A stretch of DNA of 64,000 bases from NCBI RefSeq assembly GCF_002188635.1, contig NZ_NINX01000015.1, positions 62,001-126,000 on the forward strand, written 5' to 3'. Of the stretch, positions 25,816 to 34,766 are shown piece after piece. Position 1 is the stretch's first letter. Each line of letters opens with the position of its first letter. The position numbers and the translations under genes are program-made. The DNA is from Pigmentiphaga sp. NML030171. GTDB lineage: Bacteria > Pseudomonadota > Gammaproteobacteria > Burkholderiales > Burkholderiaceae_B. The notes below the pieces were generated by a model. It was given only the letters and a program-made list of their open reading frames with translations, searched no databases and was not told the origin of the DNA.

Positions 25816-28119
25816 TCAGGCCCGCCGCACCGCCGGCGGCACGAAGGCCGTGACCGGCGGCGCGTCGTCAACGCGCTCGATCTCGACCAGGGCGGTCTGC
25901 GCCATCGAGCCCTGCGCCAGGCTCGACGTGCCCTTGTCGAGCGTCACCATGTTCGGATTGCCATGCTTGTCCAGCGAACCGGGCTCGCCGCCTTGCAGCG
26001 GGTCGTACCAGGCCCCGGTGGCGATCTGCGCGACGCCCGGCATCAGGTGCCCGGCCAGCACGGCTCCCGCCAGGAAGGCCCCGCGGTCGTTGAACACGCG
26101 GACCACGTCGCCTTCCCGGATGCCCCGCGCGGCCGCGTCGTCGGGATGCAGGGCGATGGGCTCGCGCCCGGCCACCTTGCTGGCGCGGCTGGCCTGCGCC
26201 GGATCGAGCTGGCTGTGCAGCCGGGTGGCCGGCTGGTTGGACAGGAGGTGCAGGGGATAGCGCGCGGCCTGCGCGCCGCCCAGCCATTCGGCCGGCTCCA
26301 GCCATGCGGGATGGGCCGGGCAGTCCGCGTAGCCATAGCCCTCGATCGTGCGCGAATGGATCTCTATCCGGCCCGAGGGCGTGGCGAGCGGATGGCCCCC
26401 GGGATCGCGGCGGAAATCGTCCAGCAGCACGCAGCCGGTCTCGGGCTGGGGAAAGGCGAATTGGCCGGCCTGCCAGAACGCATCGAACGCCGGCGGCGCG
26501 TAGCCCGACTCCCGGGCCCTGGCGGCGGCGACCTCGTACATGTGGCGCAGCCAGCCCATCTCGTCGCGCCCTTCGGTATAGGCCGCCTCGAAACCCAGGC
26601 GCCCCGCGACCTCGGCCAGGATGTCGAAGTCGTTGCGCGCCTGCCCCACCGGCGGAATGACCTGCCGCATGGCCATCCAATAAGGGGAGTTCTCGTGCGC
26701 CAGGATGTCGTTGCGCTCCATGGTGGAGGTCGCCGGCAGCACGATGTCGGCATGCCGGGCGGCGGGGTTCCACCACGGCTCGTGGACGATGACCGTTTCC
26801 GGCGCCTGCCAGGCGCGCAGGAAACGGTTCAGGTTGGTGTTGTGGTGGAAGGGGTTGCCGCCTATGGAATAGATCAGGCGGATGTCCGGGAACGTGATGG
26901 CCCGGCCGAAGCACTCGATCTGCTTGCCGGGATGCAGCAGCATGTCGGCGATGCGGCCCACCGGCACGTAGGTCTTGATCGCATTGGGCCCCAGCGGCAG
27001 CGTCGGGCGCGGCATGCCCTCGACGCGTGGCGCCGTCATGCCGTTGACCGCGCCGAAGCCGATGCTGAAGCCGCCGCCCGGCAGCCCGATCTGCCCCAGC
27101 ATCGCGGCCAGGGTGACCAGCATCCACACCGGCTGCTCGCCGTGATCGGCGCGCTGCACCGACCAGCTCAGGTTCACCATGGTGCGGCTGCCCGCCATCC
27201 TGCGGGCCAGCGCGCGGATCTGGCCGGCCGCAATGCCGGTGATGGCCGCCGCCCACTCCGCGCTGCGGGGCGGCCCGCCGTCGCGGCCCAGCAGATAGGC
27301 CTCGAAGCGCGCGTAGCCTTCGCAATGGCTGGCCAGGAACTCCCGGTCGTGCAGGCCTTCCGAGGCCAGCGTATGGGCGATGCCGAGCATCATCGCGGTA
27401 TCGGTATGCGGGCGGATGGGCATCCATTCCGAACGGGACGCGGGCGGCTGGTCCGCGCGCGACGGACTGATGGTCACGAACACGGGCCCGCCGCTTCCTG
27501 TGTTCCGGTACCAGTCGGGGTTGTCGTGCACCACCGCGCCGCCGGGGTCGAGCTGGGTATTCTTCAGGGCGGCGCCGCCGAACATCACCATCAGTTCGGT
27601 CGAGGCCATGACTTCCGGCCACGATGCCACCAGATTGGTGATGTCCGAGCGCCCCAGGACGTAGGGCATGATGCCCAGCGCGGCGCCGAAGCTATGGTTG
27701 CCGCGCTTGTCCACGTAGCCGCCGTGCAGGCCCAGGAAACGCTTGAGCACGCTGGGCCCGTGGTGCAGCCGGCCGGCGCTGGCCCAGCCATACGAACCGC
27801 CGTAGATGGCCTCGTTGCCGTGCTCGGCCTTGACCCGGGCCAGCTCGTCGGCGACCAGGCCCAGGGCCTGGTCCCAGCCGACGGGCACGAAGGCGTCGCC
27901 GCCGCGCCCCTGGCCGTTGCGATGGCGCAGGTAGCCCGCCCGGACATAGGGCTGGTCGATCCGCAGCGGCCCGCGCACGATCTCGGGCAGGCCCCGCACG
28001 AAGCTGGCCGGATGCGGGTCGGCGCGGAACGGCACGGTATCGACGATGGCGCCTTGCTCGTCGGTCACCACGTCGTAGACGCCCCAATGCGAGGCGGTCT
28101 GTATGGTTCGGGTCGCCAC
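25816..28119 (-). CDS. Molybdopterin oxidoreductase, biotin sulfoxide/TMAO reductase-like
   Basis: A 767-residue DMSO-reductase-family enzyme. YGGSYGWASAGRLHH near residue 107 is the motif holding the molybdenum-ligating serine of the DMSO/TMAO/biotin sulfoxide reductase group, and there is no N-terminal Fe-S cysteine cluster. PATSTMERNDILAHENSPYWMAM and YPLHLLSNQPATRLHSQLD are typical of the group. There is no twin-arginine signal peptide, so it should be cytoplasmic, favouring a BisC-type role (reducing biotin or methionine sulfoxide) over periplasmic TorA. A GTG start (28119) was chosen because AGGAGG lies 5 bases before it and the N-terminus then matches the family. It follows a broken TctC gene and precedes the FAD-oxidase gene. 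Confidence 0.87.
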   Translation of the reverse strand: MATRTIQTASHWGVYDVVTDEQGAIVDTVPFRADPHPASFVRGLPEIVRGPLRIDQPYVRAGYLRHRNGQGRGGDAFVPVGWDQALGLVADELARVKAEHGNEAIYGGSYGWASAGRLHHGPSVLKRFLGLHGGYVDKRGNHSFGAALGIMPYVLGRSDITNLVASWPEVMASTELMVMFGGAALKNTQLDPGGAVVHDNPDWYRNTGSGGPVFVTISPSRADQPPASRSEWMPIRPHTDTAMMLGIAHTLASEGLHDREFLASHCEGYARFEAYLLGRDGGPPRSAEWAAAITGIAAGQIRALARRMAGSRTMVNLSWSVQRADHGEQPVWMLVTLAAMLGQIGLPGGGFSIGFGAVNGMTAPRVEGMPRPTLPLGPNAIKTYVPVGRIADMLLHPGKQIECFGRAITFPDIRLIYSIGGNPFHHNTNLNRFLRAWQAPETVIVHEPWWNPAARHADIVLPATSTMERNDILAHENSPYWMAMRQVIPPVGQARNDFDILAEVAGRLGFEAAYTEGRDEMGWLRHMYEVAAARARESGYAPPAFDAFWQAGQFAFPQPETGCVLLDDFRRDPGGHPLATPSGRIEIHSRTIEGYGYADCPAHPAWLEPAEWLGGAQAARYPLHLLSNQPATRLHSQLDPAQASRASKVAGREPIALHPDDAAARGIREGDVVRVFNDRGAFLAGAVLAGHLMPGVAQIATGAWYDPLQGGEPGSLDKHGNPNMVTLDKGTSSLAQGSMAQTALVEIERVDDAPPVTAFVPPAVRRA

Positions 28120-28154
28120 GTGTCCTCCTGGGAAGATGGAACGATCGCCGGCCG

Positions 28155-28651
28155 TCAGTCGGCCTGGATCTTCAATTCGTCGATCAGCCGCCCCAACTGC
28201 CGGTAGTCGGCGGCCACCCGGGCTCCGAGCTTTGCGGGCGAGCCCCCCGCCGGCACGGCCGACCATGCCGCCAGCGCGAAGAACGCGTTCCAGGCGCACA
28301 GGCGCACGTCGGGAAACCCGGACTCGGCGATGGAAGGCACATTCGGCAGGAACGGCGTGCGGTCGGGATCCGCCACCGCGATGGCCGTCAATTTGCCTGC
28401 CTTGAGATACTGCCTGACCGGCCCGATCGTCACAAGCGCGACCGGAATGTGGCCCGCCACGACGTCGGTCACGGACGGCGCGACGCCCTTGTAGGGACGC
28501 GCCATGACGTCGGTGTCGCTGCCAGGTGGATAGGCGACCACGATGGTGATAGGCTTTTCAGCATAGCGTTGCGCGTGGCCGGCCGCGCTCCAGCCCCCCC
28601 CCCCGCGACGGCCAAGGCCGCGCCCAACCGCCGACGAGTGATTTTCGACAT
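28155..28651 (-). pseudogene. Broken TctC/Bug-family receptor gene
   Basis: A good start (GGAGGAACGTC then ATG at 28651) opens a signal peptide MSKITRRRLGAALAVAGG, but the frame shifts in a run of 11 G (28594-28604); 12 or 9 G would restore it. Downstream the receptor frame continues as AQRYAEKPITIVVAYPPGSDTDVMAR, then jumps to PYKGVAPSVTDVVAGH, skipping roughly 110-150 residues that normally lie between. The end (to 28155) is intact in frame. Total remnant is about 165 codons against about 325 in intact members. The large internal loss makes it a pseudogene whatever the state of the G run. It sits 35 bases before the molybdoenzyme gene. Confidence 0.85.
28594..28604 (-). repeat. Homopolymer run of 11 G (coding strand) in the broken TctC gene
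   Basis: Eleven consecutive C on the plus strand, within the signal-peptide part of the pseudogene. It is one base off the in-frame length. Such runs slip readily in replication, and can also be a sequencing-error site. Confidence 0.8.
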
Positions 28652-28741
28652 GACGTTCCTCCGTGGAATCCCCGGCACTATAGGAATCGCCCGCTTCTTC
28701 CACTGGCGAGAAACCGTCAGTTTTCGGCGAAGAACCGACAT

Positions 28742-29518
28742 ATGACGCTGCTGCCCGTGCCCCTGCCCGTCGACATGGCGGGCGAGCCGCTGCGCGTCGT
28801 CGTGCGCGAAGGCCAAGCCGGCGAAACCTCGCTCCACACCCACGCCTGCGGACAACTGCTGTATCCCGAGCGTGGCGCCACGCTGCTCCAGACCGGGCAC
28901 CACCTGGTCCGGCTGGGCCCCAGCCGAGCCGCCTGGATCCCTCCCGACCTTCCCCACGCGGTGCTGATGGAGCGCCCCTACCGGTACCACAGCGTGTATA
29001 TCGATGCGGCCGTATATGCCGAGCCGGCCTTTGCCGTGACGGGAATCAGCCCCCTGCTCAGGGAACTGATCTTCGACGCGGGACGCTGGGACGCTTCGCA
29101 CGCCGATGCCTCATCGCGCCATTGGAAGACCCGGGTGATCCTGGACGAGATCCGCCGGGCCCCGCGCGTGGCAGCCGGCCTGCCCATTCCCGAGGACGCG
29201 CGCATCGCCCAGATCTGCCGGGCGCTGGAGGCCGACCCGTCGGATGGCAGGACGCTGGCGCAATGGGCGGCGCAGGCCGGAGCCAGTGAAAAGACGATGC
29301 AGCGCATCTTCGTGAAGCTGACCGGACTGTCGTTCCAGCAGTGGCGCAATCATGCACGCATGACACGCGCGCTCGAGCTGCACGGCCAGGGCCGCCGGAT
29401 GCTCGATATCGCGGTCGAGCTGGGCTATTCCAGCGAAGGCGCCTATTCCCACGCTTTCAGGCAATTCTACGGATACTCGCCCAGCCAGTTGAAGAGAAGG
29501 AAAGCGGAAACGCCCTGA
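28742..29518 (+). CDS. AraC-family transcriptional regulator with N-terminal cupin
   Basis: A 258-residue regulator. The N-terminal cupin sensor is seen in GETSLHTHACGQLLYPERGATLL and AWIPPDLPHAVLM. The C-terminal pair of helix-turn-helix motifs includes LAQWAAQAGASEKTMQRIFVKLTGLSFQQWRNHARM and LDIAVELGYSSEGAYSHAFRQFYGYSPSQLKRR. It is divergent from the broken TctC gene and so may once have controlled that receptor and the molybdoenzyme genes. The ATG has no strong ribosome site. Confidence 0.88.
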   Translation: MTLLPVPLPVDMAGEPLRVVVREGQAGETSLHTHACGQLLYPERGATLLQTGHHLVRLGPSRAAWIPPDLPHAVLMERPYRYHSVYIDAAVYAEPAFAVTGISPLLRELIFDAGRWDASHADASSRHWKTRVILDEIRRAPRVAAGLPIPEDARIAQICRALEADPSDGRTLAQWAAQAGASEKTMQRIFVKLTGLSFQQWRNHARMTRALELHGQGRRMLDIAVELGYSSEGAYSHAFRQFYGYSPSQLKRRKAETP

Positions 29519-29581
29519 CTACAATCCACGCACGGCGATGCCCACAGGGGCATGCACAGGGACCCTGATCATGGAGCATTC

Positions 29582-30139
29582 ATGGGACATCGATTGAGCG
29601 TGATCGCCACGCGCACCGGCGACGACGGCACCACCGGCCTGGCCACCGGACCGCGCGTGGCCAAGGACTCGCCGCGCATCGCGGCCATCGGCGACGTGGA
29701 CGAACTCAACAGCGCGGTGGGCCTGCTGGCGACCGAAGCCTTGCCGCAGGACATCGCGCACGACTTGCTGGACATCCAGCACGATCTGTTCGACCTGGGG
29801 GGAGAACTCAGCATGCCCGGCCACGTCCTGCTGACTGAGGCGCGCGTGGCGCACCTGGACGGCCTGCTGGCCGATTACAACGCCCGGCTGCCGCCGCTGC
29901 GCGAATTCGTGCTGCCCGGCGGAAGCCGGCCGGCGGCCCTGGCCCACATGGCCCGTACCGTATGCCGCCGGGCCGAACGCAGCGTGGTGGCGCTGGCCGG
30001 CGTCGAGACCGTCCATGCGCCGCCGCGGCAATACCTGAACCGCCTGTCGGACCTGCTGTTCGTACTGGCCCGCGCCATCAACCAGGATGCCGGCGCGCCG
30101 GAAGTCCTGTGGCGCTCGGGCCGTACCCGAGGCCTCTAG
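29582..30139 (+). CDS. Cob(I)alamin adenosyltransferase, PduO type
   Basis: A 185-residue PduO-type adenosyltransferase. The N-terminal ATP-binding motif TRTGDDGTTGL, the helix DVDELNSAVGLL and the C-terminal RRAERSVVAL and YLNRLSDLLFVLAR are all characteristic. It transfers adenosine from ATP to cob(I)alamin, making adenosylcobalamin for B12 enzymes. The start MGHRLSVI (29582) has GGAG just upstream. It converges on aroG with only 7 bases between stop codons. No B12-dependent enzyme is nearby. Confidence 0.92.
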   Translation: MGHRLSVIATRTGDDGTTGLATGPRVAKDSPRIAAIGDVDELNSAVGLLATEALPQDIAHDLLDIQHDLFDLGGELSMPGHVLLTEARVAHLDGLLADYNARLPPLREFVLPGGSRPAALAHMARTVCRRAERSVVALAGVETVHAPPRQYLNRLSDLLFVLARAINQDAGAPEVLWRSGRTRGL

Positions 30140-30146
30140 CCGCGGC

Positions 30147-31220
30147 CTACTTGCCGCTGCTGGTCGCCACCAGCCGGCGCGCCTGCACCGCCTGGGCCAG
30201 GCGCTCGAGCACCTGCACCGAGGTATCCCAGTCGATGCAGCCGTCGGTGATGCTTTGGCCATAGACCAGCGGCTTGCCGGGAACCAGGTCCTGCCTGCCG
30301 GCCGTCAGGTGGCTTTCCACCATCACCCCGATGATGCGGTTGTCGCCCGCTTCCATCTGGCGCGCCACGTCGTCCAGCACCTGGGGCTGGTTCTCGGGCT
30401 TCTTGCTGCTGTTGGCATGGCTGGCATCGATCATCACGCGCTGGGCCAGGCCGGCCTTGGCCATGTCCTGGGCCGCGGCTTCCACGCTGGCGGCGTCGTA
30501 GTTGGGCGCCTTGCCGCCGCGCAGGATGACGTGGCAGTCCTCGTTGCCGTTGGTGGACACGATGGCCGACACGCCGCCCTTGGTCACCGACAGGAAATGG
30601 TGGGGCTGGGACGCCGCCTTGATCGCATCGACGGCGATGCGGATGTTGCCGTCGGTCCCGTTCTTGAAGCCCACGGGACACGACAGGCCGGAGGCGAGTT
30701 CGCGGTGGACCTGGCTTTCCGTGGTGCGCGCGCCGATGGCCCCCCAGGAGACGAGGTCGGCGATGTACTGGGGCGTGATCATGTCCAGATATTCACACCC
30801 CGCAGGCAAGCCGAGGGCGTTGATCTCCAGCAGCAACTGGCGGGCGGTGCGCAGCCCCTTGTTGATGTTGAAGCTGCCGTCCAGGTCGGGATCGTTGATC
30901 AGGCCCTTCCAGCCGACCGTGGTGCGCGGTTTCTCGAAGTACACCCGCATCACGATCTCGAGCTCGCCGGCGAAACGGTCGCGCTCGGCCTTCAGGCGGG
31001 AGGCGTATTCCAGGGCGGCCTTGGTGTCGTGGATGGAACACGGCCCGATCACCACCACGAGGCGGTCGTCCATGCCGTGCAGGATGCGGTGCAGCGCCTG
31101 CCGGGTGGAGTAGACCGTCTCCGAGACGTTGGTGGTGCAGGGAAACTCGCGCATCAGGTGCGAAGGCGGAGCCAGCTCCTTGATTTCACGAATGCGCAAG
31201 TCGTCGGTGTTGTGGGACAC
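30147..31220 (-). CDS. aroG: 3-deoxy-7-phosphoheptulonate (DAHP) synthase, class I
   Basis: A 357-residue DAHP synthase catalysing the first step of the shikimate pathway, from phosphoenolpyruvate and erythrose 4-phosphate. Motifs are DDLRIREIKELAPP at the start, VVIGPCSIHD, YFEKPRTTVGWKGLINDP, GARTTESQ, GFKNGTDG and MIDASHANSSKKP. The length is that of the AroG/AroF/AroH type. The start is a GTG at 31220, giving MSHNTDDLRI and preceded by GAGAGG; the frame stays open upstream but the homology begins here. A leader peptide, alternative pairing and terminator upstream (31296-31462) suggest transcription attenuation by Phe/Tyr supply, in addition to any allosteric control. Confidence 0.95.
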   Translation of the reverse strand: MSHNTDDLRIREIKELAPPSHLMREFPCTTNVSETVYSTRQALHRILHGMDDRLVVVIGPCSIHDTKAALEYASRLKAERDRFAGELEIVMRVYFEKPRTTVGWKGLINDPDLDGSFNINKGLRTARQLLLEINALGLPAGCEYLDMITPQYIADLVSWGAIGARTTESQVHRELASGLSCPVGFKNGTDGNIRIAVDAIKAASQPHHFLSVTKGGVSAIVSTNGNEDCHVILRGGKAPNYDAASVEAAAQDMAKAGLAQRVMIDASHANSSKKPENQPQVLDDVARQMEAGDNRIIGVMVESHLTAGRQDLVPGKPLVYGQSITDGCIDWDTSVQVLERLAQAVQARRLVATSSGK

Positions 31221-31295
31221 GATCCTCTCCTGGATTTCAATGATGTCTGGTATGCATGTCTTGGGGGGGTTCGCCCCACCGTTTCGTCCAGGCAC

Positions 31296-31328
31296 AAAAA
31301 AAGCCGCCAGGACGCTGGCGGCTTTTTT
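31296..31328 (-). terminator. Attenuator-type terminator upstream of aroG
   Basis: Perfect 14-bp arms (AAAAAAGCCGCCAG/CTGGCGGCTTTTTT, 31297-31310 and 31315-31328) enclose a 4-base loop. On the minus strand, the direction of aroG, the stem ends in seven T. It lies between the leader-peptide stop (31343) and the aroG start (31220), so it would stop aroG transcription early. The first arm can instead pair with leader bases 31366-31374. Confidence 0.88.
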
Positions 31329-31342
31329 GGGGCAGGAATCCG

Positions 31343-31426
31343 TTAGATACGACGCTTCCTTTCCTCCGCCAGCGGCTTTGGAAATCCAAAAAAGTAAAAG
31401 TAAAAATACGTGGAAGCGTAGTTCAT
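31343..31426 (-). CDS. Phe/Tyr-rich leader peptide of aroG (27 residues)
   Basis: A short ORF reading MNYASTYFYFYFFGFPKP and then LAEERKRRI. It has 5 Phe and 4 Tyr codons, with eight of those nine packed into residues 7-15 (YFYFYFFGF). It ends with TAA 15 bases before the terminator stem. Just after the Phe/Tyr block is CGCTGGCGG (31374-31366), complementary to CCGCCAGCG in the first terminator arm (31321-31313). A second pairing, ACGCTTCC (31419-31412) with GGAAGCGT (31359-31352), could form when ribosomes are absent. This is the classic layout for ribosome-stalling attenuation by amino acid supply. There is no Shine-Dalgarno sequence; the -10 box is 7 bases before the ATG, so the message may be leaderless. 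Confidence 0.82.
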   Translation of the reverse strand: MNYASTYFYFYFFGFPKPLAEERKRRI

Positions 31427-31433
31427 AAAATAT

Positions 31434-31462
31434 ATCGTAGCAGGGGCCGGCCGCTTCGGCAA
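31434..31462 (-). promoter_or_regulatory. Promoter of the aroG leader transcript
   Basis: On the minus strand TTGCCG (31462-31457), 17 bases, TACGAT (31439-31434). The expected start of transcription falls at or within 2 bases of the leader-peptide ATG (31426). The M23 peptidase gene begins 35 bases away in the other direction. Confidence 0.6.
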
Positions 31463-31496
31463 GTAGCGGGCACCGTTCTTGCGGACGGCGGAAACC

Positions 31497-32060
<564 letters not shown>

Positions 32061-32078
32061 GGGCGCCTTCGTGCGTGC

Positions 32079-32942
32079 TCAGCCGAAAAAGGCCAGCAGC
32101 ATCCGGTTCGTCGCCTCGGCCTGCTCGAACTGCACCCAGTGCCCGGCATGGGGAATCACGCGCCACTGGCGCTCGGGCCGGCCGTCGACCCACCACGGCC
32201 CCACCCGGTCCGGATACGCGGTCACGTCGTGCTCGCCCCAGGCGAACAGGATGGGCATGGAAAAGCCGTCCAGGATGCCCTTGGTGGGGCCGCTCTGCGA
32301 CAGGGCCTTGCTGCGAAAGCGCGTGGCCTCGCAGGCCTGGCGGTGCACCGCGACGGCCAGCGCGTCGATGCTGCTTTCGTCGTGCAGCATCAGGGCGCGC
32401 AGGTTGTGGCGCAGGTCCTCGACCAGGGCCGCCTCGCCGCTTGCCAGCCGCCAGTTGACCATCGCGGCCTTCTGCCGGCGCGGCGTGCCATGGCCGGCTG
32501 CGCCCAGCAGGGCCAGGTGCGCCACGCGCCCGCGCCGCGCGGCCAGGTGGGCCGCGCACAGGCCGCCGAACGAGAAGCCGGCCAGGTCGATCGGCGTGTC
32601 CGCTCCCACGAGCTGGTCCAGCGTTGCCGCAGTGGTCGCCACCAGGTGGGGCAGGTCGGCGGGCGGCGTCAGCGTGCCGGATTCGCCGAACGACGGCATG
32701 TCGGGCACCCATACGGTGTGGCGTTGCGCGAGCGCCCCCAGGTTGCGTATCCAGTGCCGCCAGCTGCCGTGCCCGCCATGCAGCAGCACCAGCGGACTCC
32801 CCTGCCCGGCCGAGCGCCAGACGACGCGCGTGCCGGCATGCTCGGCCTCGTGGCGGACGGTGGCGGCATCCATGGCGGCGATGGCCGCCTCGGCCTGGGC
32901 ACGGTCGTCGTTCGGGAACAGGATGGGATCGATGTCGCTCAT
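32079..32942 (-). CDS. Alpha/beta hydrolase
   Basis: A 287-residue alpha/beta hydrolase without a signal peptide. The HG oxyanion motif is VLLHGGHGSWRHWIRNLGAL, the nucleophile is in AGFSFGG (Ser124), the acid is likely in FAWGEHDVTAY and the histidine is in PHAGHWVQFEQ. The pattern resembles meta-cleavage-product hydrolases and similar C-C or ester hydrolases, but nothing nearby supports that pathway. The start MSDIDP (32942) was chosen as an N-terminus of usual length. It stands alone between two plus-strand genes. Confidence 0.82.
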   Translation of the reverse strand: MSDIDPILFPNDDRAQAEAAIAAMDAATVRHEAEHAGTRVVWRSAGQGSPLVLLHGGHGSWRHWIRNLGALAQRHTVWVPDMPSFGESGTLTPPADLPHLVATTAATLDQLVGADTPIDLAGFSFGGLCAAHLAARRGRVAHLALLGAAGHGTPRRQKAAMVNWRLASGEAALVEDLRHNLRALMLHDESSIDALAVAVHRQACEATRFRSKALSQSGPTKGILDGFSMPILFAWGEHDVTAYPDRVGPWWVDGRPERQWRVIPHAGHWVQFEQAEATNRMLLAFFG

Positions 32943-33055
32943 GACGGAGGGGCGGAAGCTGGCCGACAAAGGCGCAAGCTTAACCCGTCGCGGCGGCGGC
33001 CACGGTCCCATCCACTACACTAGCGCCTCTGCACCGATTCTTGACCGTGGCCAGC

Positions 33056-33802
33056 ATGTCCGAACCCGTCCGCCTATCCAAACGCATGTCCGAACTGGGA
33101 CTCTGCTCCCGCCGGGAGGCGGATGAATGGATCAGCCGCGGCTGGGTGCGCGTGGACGGCGCGGTGGTGTCGGTGCTGGGCAGCAAGGTGCTGCCGAACC
33201 AGAAGATCACCATCGAACGCCAGGCCAGCGCCGAACAGGCGCAGCGGGTCACCATCCTGCTGAACAAGCCGGTCGGTTATGTCAGCGGCCAGGCCGAGGA
33301 CGGCTACCAGCCTGCCGTGACCCTGGTCAAGGCCAGCACGCGATGGACCGGAGACCGCTCGCCCATCCGCTTCCAGCCCAGCCAGTTGCGCAGCCTGGTG
33401 CCGGCCGGACGGCTGGACATCGATTCGGTGGGCCTCTTGGTACTGACCCAGGATGGCCGCATCGCCAAGCACCTGATCGGCGAGGACTCCACCGTCGACA
33501 AGGAATACCTGGTCCGCGTGCAATACACCCGTCCGGGACGCCTGCCCGACAGCGACCTGAAGCGGCTCAACCATGGCCTGTCGCTGGACGGCAAGCCGCT
33601 GCGGCCAGCCAAGGTTCGCTGGCAGAACGACGACCAGTTGTCCTTCACGCTGCGCGAGGGCAAGAAACGCCAGATCCGCCGCATGTGCGAACTGGTGGGC
33701 CTGAAGGTGGTGGGACTGAAGCGCGTGCGCATCGGCGGCGTGGCGCTGGGCGACCTGCCGCCGGGGCAATGGCGCTATCTTCGGCCCGACGAACGGTTCT
33801 GA
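33056..33802 (+). CDS. 23S rRNA pseudouridine synthase, RsuA/RluB/E/F family
   Basis: A 248-residue enzyme with an N-terminal S4 RNA-binding domain (RLSKRMSELGLCSRREADEWISRGWVRVDG) and the family catalytic motif PAGRLDIDSVGLLVLTQDG, where the first Asp forms the adduct with uridine. The C-terminal motif is REGKKRQIRRMCELVGLKVVGLKRVRIG. Sequence and length look most like RluF, which modifies U2604 of 23S rRNA, but RluB or RluE cannot be excluded. The start MSEPVRLSK fits the family; a TTG 15 bases upstream is possible. Confidence 0.87.
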   Translation: MSEPVRLSKRMSELGLCSRREADEWISRGWVRVDGAVVSVLGSKVLPNQKITIERQASAEQAQRVTILLNKPVGYVSGQAEDGYQPAVTLVKASTRWTGDRSPIRFQPSQLRSLVPAGRLDIDSVGLLVLTQDGRIAKHLIGEDSTVDKEYLVRVQYTRPGRLPDSDLKRLNHGLSLDGKPLRPAKVRWQNDDQLSFTLREGKKRQIRRMCELVGLKVVGLKRVRIGGVALGDLPPGQWRYLRPDERF

Positions 33803-33803
33803 T

Positions 33804-34766
33804 TCAGTCCAGCGACGCGCCCGATTCCTTGACCGCCGTGGCCCACACCTTGTTGTCGTCGGCCAGCTTGCGGGCGAACTGCTCGGGCGTATTGCACAGT
33901 ACCGATACTCCGATGGCCGCCAGCTTCGCGGCGAACCCCGCGTCCTTGCCCGCTTCCGCCAGCGAGCCGGCGATGCGGTCGATCACCTCGCGAGGCGTGC
34001 CCGCCGGCGCGGCGATGCCGTTCCAGGTTTCCGTGGAAAACCCGGGATAGCCCTGCTCGGCCACCGTCTTGACCGAAGGCAGGTCGGTCGACCGGCGCTC
34101 GCCGGATACCGCCACGACGCGCAGCTTGTCGCTCTTGACGTAGGGCAGGACCTCGGCGACGTTGGCGAAGTACATGGGCACCTGCCCGCCCACCACGTCG
34201 GCGATGGCCGGCGCGCCGCCGCGATACGGGGCGTGGATCATCGACAGGCTGGCGCGCTTGACGAACATGGCCATCGTCAAATGGCTGACCGAGCCGCTGC
34301 CCGCCGAGGCATAGGCGACCTGGCCCGGCCGCGCCTTGATGTAGTCCACCAGTTCCGGCAGGCTCTTGGCCGGGAAGCCGGGATGGACCGCCAGCGCGAA
34401 CTCGTTGGTGGCCACGATGGACACCGGCGCGAAGTCCTTGATGGGATCGTACCGGACCTTCTGCAAGGCCGGAACGATGGCCATCTGCGGCAAGGTGGCC
34501 ATGAACAGCGTGTAGCCGTCGGGCCGGGCGCGCGCGACGTAGTCCGCGGCGATCGCGCCGTTGGCCCCCGGGCGGTTGTCGACCACCACGGTCTGCTTGA
34601 GCTGCGTGGTCAGCCATTCGGCGGTGATCCGCGCGATGCTGTCGGTATTGCCGCCGGCGGCGAACGGCACGACCAGCGTGATCGCGCGCTCGGGCCATGC
34701 CGCATGCGCGGCCCCCGCCATGGTCAGCGAAAGAAGAACCCCTGCAAATCGCCACTTCATTTTCAT
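33804..34766 (-). CDS. TctC/Bug-family receptor of the 33.8-39.2 kb catabolic locus
   Basis: A 320-residue receptor with a short signal peptide (MKMKWRFAGVLLSLTMAGAAHA). Family motifs are ITLVVPFAAGGNTDSIARI, VVVDNRPGANGAIAADYVA, PDGYTLFM and PYRGGAPAIADVVGGQ. GGGGAA is 6 bases before the ATG at 34766. It is the third gene of a leftward operon after the EthD-like gene and the FCD regulator, and its ligand is presumably the substrate of the rightward operon beyond the shared promoter. Confidence 0.91.
   Translation of the reverse strand: MKMKWRFAGVLLSLTMAGAAHAAWPERAITLVVPFAAGGNTDSIARITAEWLTTQLKQTVVVDNRPGANGAIAADYVARARPDGYTLFMATLPQMAIVPALQKVRYDPIKDFAPVSIVATNEFALAVHPGFPAKSLPELVDYIKARPGQVAYASAGSGSVSHLTMAMFVKRASLSMIHAPYRGGAPAIADVVGGQVPMYFANVAEVLPYVKSDKLRVVAVSGERRSTDLPSVKTVAEQGYPGFSTETWNGIAAPAGTPREVIDRIAGSLAEAGKDAGFAAKLAAIGVSVLCNTPEQFARKLADDNKVWATAVKESGASLD

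Follow-up and report, generated by a model that had tools for sequence, protein, structure and literature searches.

This study concerns the region upstream of aroG, which encodes a class I-alpha 3-deoxy-D-arabino-heptulosonate 7-phosphate (DAHP) synthase, in a stretch of 64,000 nucleotides from Pigmentiphaga sp. NML030171 (contig NZ_NINX01000015.1, positions 62,001 to 126,000), referred to here as the window; coordinates are those of the window unless another locus is named. The main finding is that aroG is very probably controlled by a ribosome-mediated transcription attenuator, composed of a short open reading frame (ORF) rich in Phe and Tyr codons, an intrinsic terminator and an alternative antiterminator pairing. 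The shikimate pathway begins with DAHP synthase, whose control in enteric bacteria is taught as repression by TyrR and TrpR together with feedback inhibition. A sequence-only reading of the window had placed, in this order, a promoter, an ORF of 27 codons with YFYFYFFGF at residues 7 to 15, a terminator with a 14-bp stem and seven T, and aroG; each of these elements lies where that reading put it, the residues are as it gave them, and the two pairings that it added, an antiterminator and a further helix (helix 1 below), are both present. The features are as follows.

31462-31457, minus strand: promoter -35 element TTGCCG, separated by a spacer of 17 nt from TACGAT (from sequence).
31442-31434, minus strand: extended -10 element TGC-TACGAT, TGCTACGAT, with TACGAT at 31439-31434 (from sequence).
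31426, minus strand: predicted start of transcription, on the A of the leader's ATG (from the position of the -10 element and the absence of a Shine-Dalgarno sequence).
31426-31343, minus strand: leader peptide ORF MNYASTYFYFYFFGFPKPLAEERKRRI, 27 codons and TAA (from sequence and conservation).
31408-31382, minus strand: control codons 7 to 15, YFYFYFFGF, predicted ribosome stall region (from sequence and a composition control).
31419-31412 with 31359-31352, minus strand: helix 1, ACGCTTCC with GGAAGCGT, both inside the leader ORF (from fold and covariation).
31384-31380 with 31364-31360, minus strand: internal hairpin, TTTCC with GGAAA, GCC/GGC inside (from fold).
31374-31366, minus strand: antiterminator 5' arm CGCTGGCGG, inside leader codons 18 to 21 (from pairing and covariation).
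31321-31313, minus strand: antiterminator 3' arm CCGCCAGCG, which also makes up part of the 5' arm and of the loop of the terminator.
31328-31296, minus strand: intrinsic terminator, AAAAAAGCCGCCAG / CGTC / CTGGCGGCTTTTTT and T run (from sequence and fold).
31220-30147, minus strand: aroG, class I-alpha DAHP synthase, 357 aa (NF006723, TIGR00034, PF00793).

The terminator arms (31328-31315 and 31310-31297) form a stem of 14 bp located 3' of the leader stop codon, with the seven-T run at 31302-31296, and the internal hairpin overlies the 5' arm of the antiterminator. The start codon of the gene is a GTG at 31220, preceded by GGAG at 31230-31227; its product scores above the cut-off for NCBIfam NF006723 (AroG) and TIGR00034, and Pfam PF00793 is also matched. 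The leader thereby carries the parts of an attenuator: a short ORF, predicted to be translated, with codons for amino acids of the pathway; an intrinsic terminator, predicted to act, between this ORF and aroG; and, just past the control codons, an antiterminator whose pairing would be exclusive with that terminator. Among 592 distinct mini-ORFs of the window (10 to 62 aa, both strands), 2 have at least five aromatic residues in a stretch of eight, namely the aroG leader ORF with seven and a single other with five. The whole leader RNA folds into the terminator form at -44.2 kcal/mol (z = -3.2), none of 200 shuffles being equally stable, and the best fold of 31389-31312 is the alternative, antiterminator form.

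From this layout and its conservation we infer the transcription start, termination, stalling and a response to Phe and Tyr, according to the following scheme. RNA polymerase would start at or adjoining the leader AUG, with a ribosome trailing on the nascent, probably leaderless, RNA. Given ample Phe-tRNA and Tyr-tRNA, the ribosome would reach the stop codon and cover CGCUGGCGG, upon which the terminator would form and transcription would stop before aroG. Were Phe-tRNA or Tyr-tRNA scarce, it would stall in the aromatic codons and leave CGCUGGCGG free to pair with CCGCCAGCG, so that the terminator is blocked and aroG transcribed. As long as no ribosome is stalled, helix 1 and the internal hairpin may sequester the antiterminator arm.

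In the window leader, the antiterminator arm starts 7 nt past codon 15 and 13 nt past codon 13. Under a rule that counts from the last position of the densest eight-residue stretch to the GGCGG core of the antiterminator arm, the distance has a median of 11 nt in the genus of the window, in other Alcaligenaceae, in xanthomonads (11 in all nine) and in alphaproteobacteria, of 14 nt in Burkholderiaceae and of 17 nt in Oxalobacteraceae; by the same rule it is 17 nt in the window leader itself. The fold model assumes that the ribosome covers 12 nt beyond the codon in its A (aminoacyl) site, and folds the RNA left free. In all 116 leaders modelled, it yields an antiterminator with the ribosome in the cluster and none once the ribosome has reached the stop codon; in the window leader, a shift of the A site from codon 16 to codon 17 lowers the modelled antiterminator probability from 0.61 to 0. 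When the ribosome is omitted from the model, the closed form is favoured in Oxalobacteraceae (median antiterminator P 0.15) and xanthomonads (0.39).

To assess how widely the element occurs, we inspected upstream regions of aroG in 11 genomes of the genus (its own included), at 60 further loci of the family (20 plus 40 spanning genera) and at 80 named loci, the latter being the best 80 of a longer match list; one place belongs to two sets (L014 = L101, with the same leader). An ORF with an aromatic cluster was found in all 11 genus genomes and at 57 of the 60 further family loci. Among the named loci, 61 of 80 have the element (in 59 both ORF and terminator satisfy the rules, L045 was recognised by eye and L062 through an RNA model); among these loci are Burkholderia and its relatives, Cupriavidus, Oxalobacteraceae, Xanthomonadales, Bradyrhizobium, Mesorhizobium, Devosia and Phenylobacterium. 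The leader codons, whose conservation in close relatives the sequence-only reading had offered as a check, recur in the genus, in the family and in several other families. A terminator was found by rule at 126 of 133 leader-bearing loci (118 distinct) and not at L045, L051, L055, L062, L084, L090 and L145; it is visible by eye at L045 and L145, and L051, L055, L084 and L090 were scored as being without the element.

The leader was not found, among the named loci, in Rhodocyclales, Methylotenera, enterics, Enterovibrio, Ferrovum L091 and some others, and at Ferrovum L068 the upstream sequence is too short to judge its presence. At three loci from enterics and Vibrionaceae, L087, L090 and L093, no leader of the aroG type was found; L090 has a mini-ORF with five aromatic residues in eight, but without such a terminator. 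Wider occurrence is patchy: among loci that are best protein matches, and so non-random, with several places already seen, the element is present at 9 of 29 newly returned by an order-wide search and, of 29 from a phylum-wide search, at 10 by rule and at L224 by eye. Second aroG copies, with 58-59% identity to that of the window, exist in two genomes of the genus (L012 and L013), and these copies have no such leader. At L062 (Undibacterium), an attenuator-like RNA (1894-2032 of that locus) lies about 470 nt upstream of aroG, and other sequence separates terminator and gene. At L244 (1193-1304, plasmid pPAN2 of Paracoccus pantotrophus), a weak element (E 0.0044), consisting of an ORF with SFYWFRY and a terminator-like hairpin, precedes aroG.

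Pairing was assessed in an alignment of 61 distinct family leaders, made with MAFFT and fitted to no structure (L135 was left out of it and of the fold model; L018, of doubtful leader reading frame, was left out of the fold model and of the shuffle test below). Helix 1 has two-sided changes in 7 of its 8 pairs, with 74.3% of cells paired, and one of its positions is GC in 18 rows, UA in 13, AU in 4 and unpaired in 18. For the antiterminator CGCTGGCGG/CCGCCAGCG, pairing is seen in 92.3% of cells and two-sided changes in 4 of 9 pairs; the terminator is paired in 93.6% of cells across the 61 sequences. Taken jointly, the four helices of the structure that contains helix 1 show 51 two-sided cells; shuffles give 24.6, and none of 500 reaches 51. 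Of the cells in these helices, 89.3% pair, against at most 58.4% when the helices are slid. Over all lineages, 96 of 117 leaders have an antiterminator that does better at p<0.05 than mononucleotide shuffles, where about 6 leaders are expected, the result being weakest in alphaproteobacteria (8/15) and xanthomonads (5/9). Compensated forms of it include CACTGGCGG/CCGCCAGTG, CCTGGCGG/CCGCCAGG, CCGGCGG/CCGCCGG and GAGGCGGT/ACCGCCTC, in a pair list that covers 110 leaders, the hairpin not having been found in 16 of 126. Conservation of the helices in relatives, whose absence, like that of the leader codons, would have refuted the sequence-only reading, is thus seen for the antiterminator and for helix 1 alike.

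At least one Trp codon is present in 0 of 7 distinct leaders of the window's genus, 9 of 55 of other Alcaligenaceae, 11 of 13 of Burkholderiaceae, 2 of 12 of Oxalobacteraceae, all 9 of xanthomonads, all 15 of alphaproteobacteria and 4 of 7 of others. Variation of the aromatic codons in number, order and kind across lineages tells against nascent-peptide arrest, of the types known from TnaC and ErmC, by which a strongly aromatic peptide would stall the ribosome on free phenylalanine, tyrosine or a drug and not upon tRNA charging: arrest peptides rely on residue-specific contacts, in contrast to the variable codons here. What does recommend arrest, beyond the aromatic character of the peptide, is that its C-terminal PLAEEG looks conserved in many leaders. 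This conserved part is, however, antiterminator and hairpin sequence, and is explained by RNA pairing; in Oxalobacteraceae the peptide has AVE instead, and the RNA pairing is retained. The internal hairpin (UUUCC/GGAAA around GCC-GCU-GGC) has its two helices paired in 96.1% and 95.1% of cells of the family alignment, with a single pair showing a two-sided change in each, and the conserved look of PKPLAEE is possibly due to this RNA occupying that stretch. We therefore consider nascent-peptide arrest very unlikely.

Several observations weigh against attenuation in the form outlined above. No leader was found at 3 of the 60 further family loci, L124, L129 and L133; at L133 (200-800), the stretch directly before aroG resembles the end of what we take to be a TldD-like protein gene. 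The window leader has no Trp codon, although DAHP synthase also feeds Trp synthesis. As regards covariation, pairing at the first position of helix 1 is absent from 31 of 58 rows; two of the five measures taken over the four helices, namely the number of pairs with a two-sided change (11, against 8.1 shuffled; 18 of 500 as high) and that of pair types (36, against 34.2; 128 of 500 as high), are only weakly above shuffles, and a version slid by +3 has 47 two-sided cells against 51 unslid. An inner antiterminator helix (GGGAA/TTCCC, AGGAA/TTCCT), conserved on visual inspection, was tried and rejected, since 5 of 117 leaders at p<0.05 is the chance level; in the MAFFT alignment, four of its pairs are paired in 35.7% of cells and the fifth in 21.4%. 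In the fold model, 275 of 580 controls, in which the stretch from cluster to terminator was shuffled, are switch-like as well. With no ribosome, RNAs of the genus favour the antiterminator until the second arm of the terminator has been made (median P 1.00), so that a role of helix 1, which does covary, as the protecting 1:2 helix is tentative in this species: in the modelled leaders of the genus, helix 1 fails to win over the antiterminator while the terminator is still incomplete.

The A of the leader ATG (31426) is the eighth base downstream of the -10 element, and the transcript therefore probably starts at the start codon. The leader ORF is thus probably leaderless, with a start site predicted from the promoter. 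An extended -10 (TGNTANNNT) ending 5 to 9 nt before the leader ATG is present in 63 of 67 distinct family upstream regions, against about 0.5 in shuffles; these comprise 11 of 11 regions of the genus and 52 of 56 others. The regions without it are L118, L134, L135 and L153, and the assigned leader start codon is wrong in L135, probably also in L134 and L153. A Shine-Dalgarno pattern was found before the leader ORF in 0 of 11 genus leaders and before aroG in 11 of 11; 15 of the 56 other family leaders match it, every time through the AGGA of the -10 itself. A putative promoter occupies roughly this position in all 9 xanthomonad regions (0.25 expected) and 14 of 16 alphaproteobacterial ones (0.14 expected), while TATAAA lies mostly 35-39 nt before the ATG in Burkholderiaceae leaders (12/13) and TATAGT mostly 25-27 nt before it in Oxalobacteraceae (9/12); the patterns for these four groups were picked after the sequences had been read. 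The motif preceding leaderless mRNAs in Bradyrhizobium is reported to be an extended -10, TGnTA (PMC4842269), and the trp leader RNA of Sinorhizobium meliloti begins at its own AUG (PMC7298713, PMC10117765).

The element and the gene are closely associated. A covariance model (R1), built from family leaders and run gene-blind with strict filters, matched 33 of 150 genomes of the order with an E-value no worse than 0.001; the genome of the window has a single match. aroG adjoins the match in 25 of 30 loci returned, including 20 of 20 with E below 9e-5, two of which (G000 and G015) had contributed to building the model. Five loci with no nearby aroG (L176, L178, L180, L181 and L185; E 9.7e-5 to 5.8e-4) were interpreted as terminators matched by chance; for five weaker matches no locus was returned. 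On a tree of AroG with 105 rows (73 with the leader, 31 without and 1 unknown; six states were set by hand), leader presence tracks the branching: its label requires 8 changes, compared with a mean of 27 after shuffling, and none of 500 shuffles needed so few. In this tree, 17 alphaproteobacterial-type and 9 xanthomonad-type rows make up one clade, with a branch support (SH-aLRT, the Shimodaira-Hasegawa-like approximate likelihood ratio test) of 99, which joins Alcaligenaceae with weaker support (84); L088, titled Lysobacterales, is placed elsewhere. Such a tree fits, without proving it, a joint transfer of leader and gene.

Adjacency to aroG at all of the 20 best model matches and the tracking of the AroG tree both count against a constitutive terminator combined with a small gene, where the ORF would encode a functional peptide, or its RNA would be an independent small RNA, and aroG would be expressed by constant read-through. 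The terminated RNA, of about 131 nt, would indeed resemble a small leaderless mRNA such as rnTrpL of S. meliloti, and a trans action is reported for rnTrpL and its peptide peTrpL (PMC7298713, PMC7143759). A constitutive terminator would not predict mutually exclusive pairing with compensating changes, and we hold it to be as improbable as peptide arrest. The plan of the trp and phe attenuators, which the sequence-only reading had applied to this DAHP synthase gene, is supported by the conserved codons, the helices and the association with aroG. That reading did not mention the probably leaderless nature of the ORF, the occurrence of the element before aroG of xanthomonads and alphaproteobacteria, or the additional Trp codons of the leaders in these two groups.

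None of 4227 Rfam families reached threshold on the leader, whether in window positions 28000-34000 or in 15 relatives. The Phe leader family (RF01859 Phe_leader) gave 23.3 bits (E = 1.6), against a gathering score of 55, in an alignment that omits 77 model positions and matches mainly the terminator. Other weak matches were rejected: those to RcsR1 and STnc480 fall on the other strand of the palindromic terminator, and that to BjrC1505 has 19.6 bits against 50, with no gathering-level support in the Bradyrhizobium loci L053 and L058. A riboswitch or a T-box, sensing an aromatic compound or uncharged tRNA directly, free of translation, would likewise be a conserved leader RNA that can fold in two ways and precedes a biosynthetic gene. 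Of the seven Rfam matches with E of at most 10 in positions 28000-34000, none is to a family of either kind, no match in the 15 relatives attains a gathering score, and the ORF retains aromatic codons over many lineages; direct sensing of this kind is the most remote of the explanations considered, and close to negligible.

Ribosome-mediated attenuation has well-known precedents. The leaders of pheA and pheST in enteric bacteria combine a Phe-rich leader ORF, an antiterminator and a terminator with a downstream gene of Phe metabolism. The aroG leader has the same plan as these leaders (RF01859), and differs from them in that the gene is aroG and that Tyr codons alternate with Phe codons. In Corynebacterium glutamicum, one report describes a Phe-Tyr-Phe leader peptide and a proposed attenuator at aroF, cg1129 (PMC4046766); there, likewise, a Phe/Tyr leader peptide precedes a DAHP synthase gene, but the organism is an actinobacterium and aroF is one of two DAHP synthases. 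Going by that proposal, attenuation of a DAHP synthase gene is not a new idea. The trpL leader of S. meliloti (rnTrpL/peTrpL) is reported to have a leaderless ORF and ribosome-dependent attenuation, as predicted for the aroG leader, but senses Trp and controls trpE(G) (PMC7298713, PMC10117765, PMC7143759); RcsR1 is described there as transcribed from the same position as rnTrpL. Tables in two papers list attenuators at Shewanella aroF and aroH and Vibrio aroA-tyrA (PMC2659441, PMC1173090) and at the Bordetella parapertussis gyrA-serC-pheA-tyrA cluster, not at aroG (PMC1173090). These entries are cases of suspected attenuation of DAHP synthase genes or others of the aromatic pathway, in other genes or lineages. 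In the literature searched, no description of this aroG leader in Proteobacteria was found, though older comparative papers beyond that search may mention it, and the main texts of start-site papers on Burkholderia (PMC4603805) and Bradyrhizobium (PMC4842269) mention neither aroG nor a leader peptide. The element apparently represents a broad, uncatalogued RNA family, which most likely works by a known mechanism.

In the window, aroG is flanked by a cobalamin adenosyltransferase gene (29552-30139) and an M23 peptidase gene (31479-32060), both on the plus strand; as the nearest genes on both sides are on the opposite strand, aroG seems to be alone behind the leader. Further away, an ORF at 28155-28703 (minus strand) resembles a shortened version of what is presumably a Bug/TctC-like receptor of tricarboxylate transporters, possibly degraded. 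At the genome level, aroG is the only TIGR00034 match, giving one class I-alpha DAHP synthase, and no class II DAHP synthase was matched in this genome. The remaining type of DAHP synthase has one match, of 113 bits against a cut-off of 267.75, which is probably KdsA. aroG is the sole recognised DAHP synthase of the genome.

For the annotation of bacterial genomes, the presence of this element in many genera, with no Rfam family at threshold, means that annotation based on Rfam will miss it. Tentatively, and as a possibility somewhat short of probable, we propose that a single old, unrecognised family of leaderless attenuators moved as one unit with aroG across the betaproteobacteria, xanthomonads and alphaproteobacteria, and that codon swaps re-tuned its sensor from Phe/Tyr, as in the window's genus, to Phe/Tyr/Trp in the alphaproteobacteria and xanthomonads. 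If this is true, one short ORF would report on all three end products of the pathway. Natural leaders that differ in their Trp codons make the rule linking codon to signal, and leaderless initiation in attenuation, directly testable. In the genome of the window, the charging state of tRNA-Phe and tRNA-Tyr appears to gate the sole recognised DAHP synthase.

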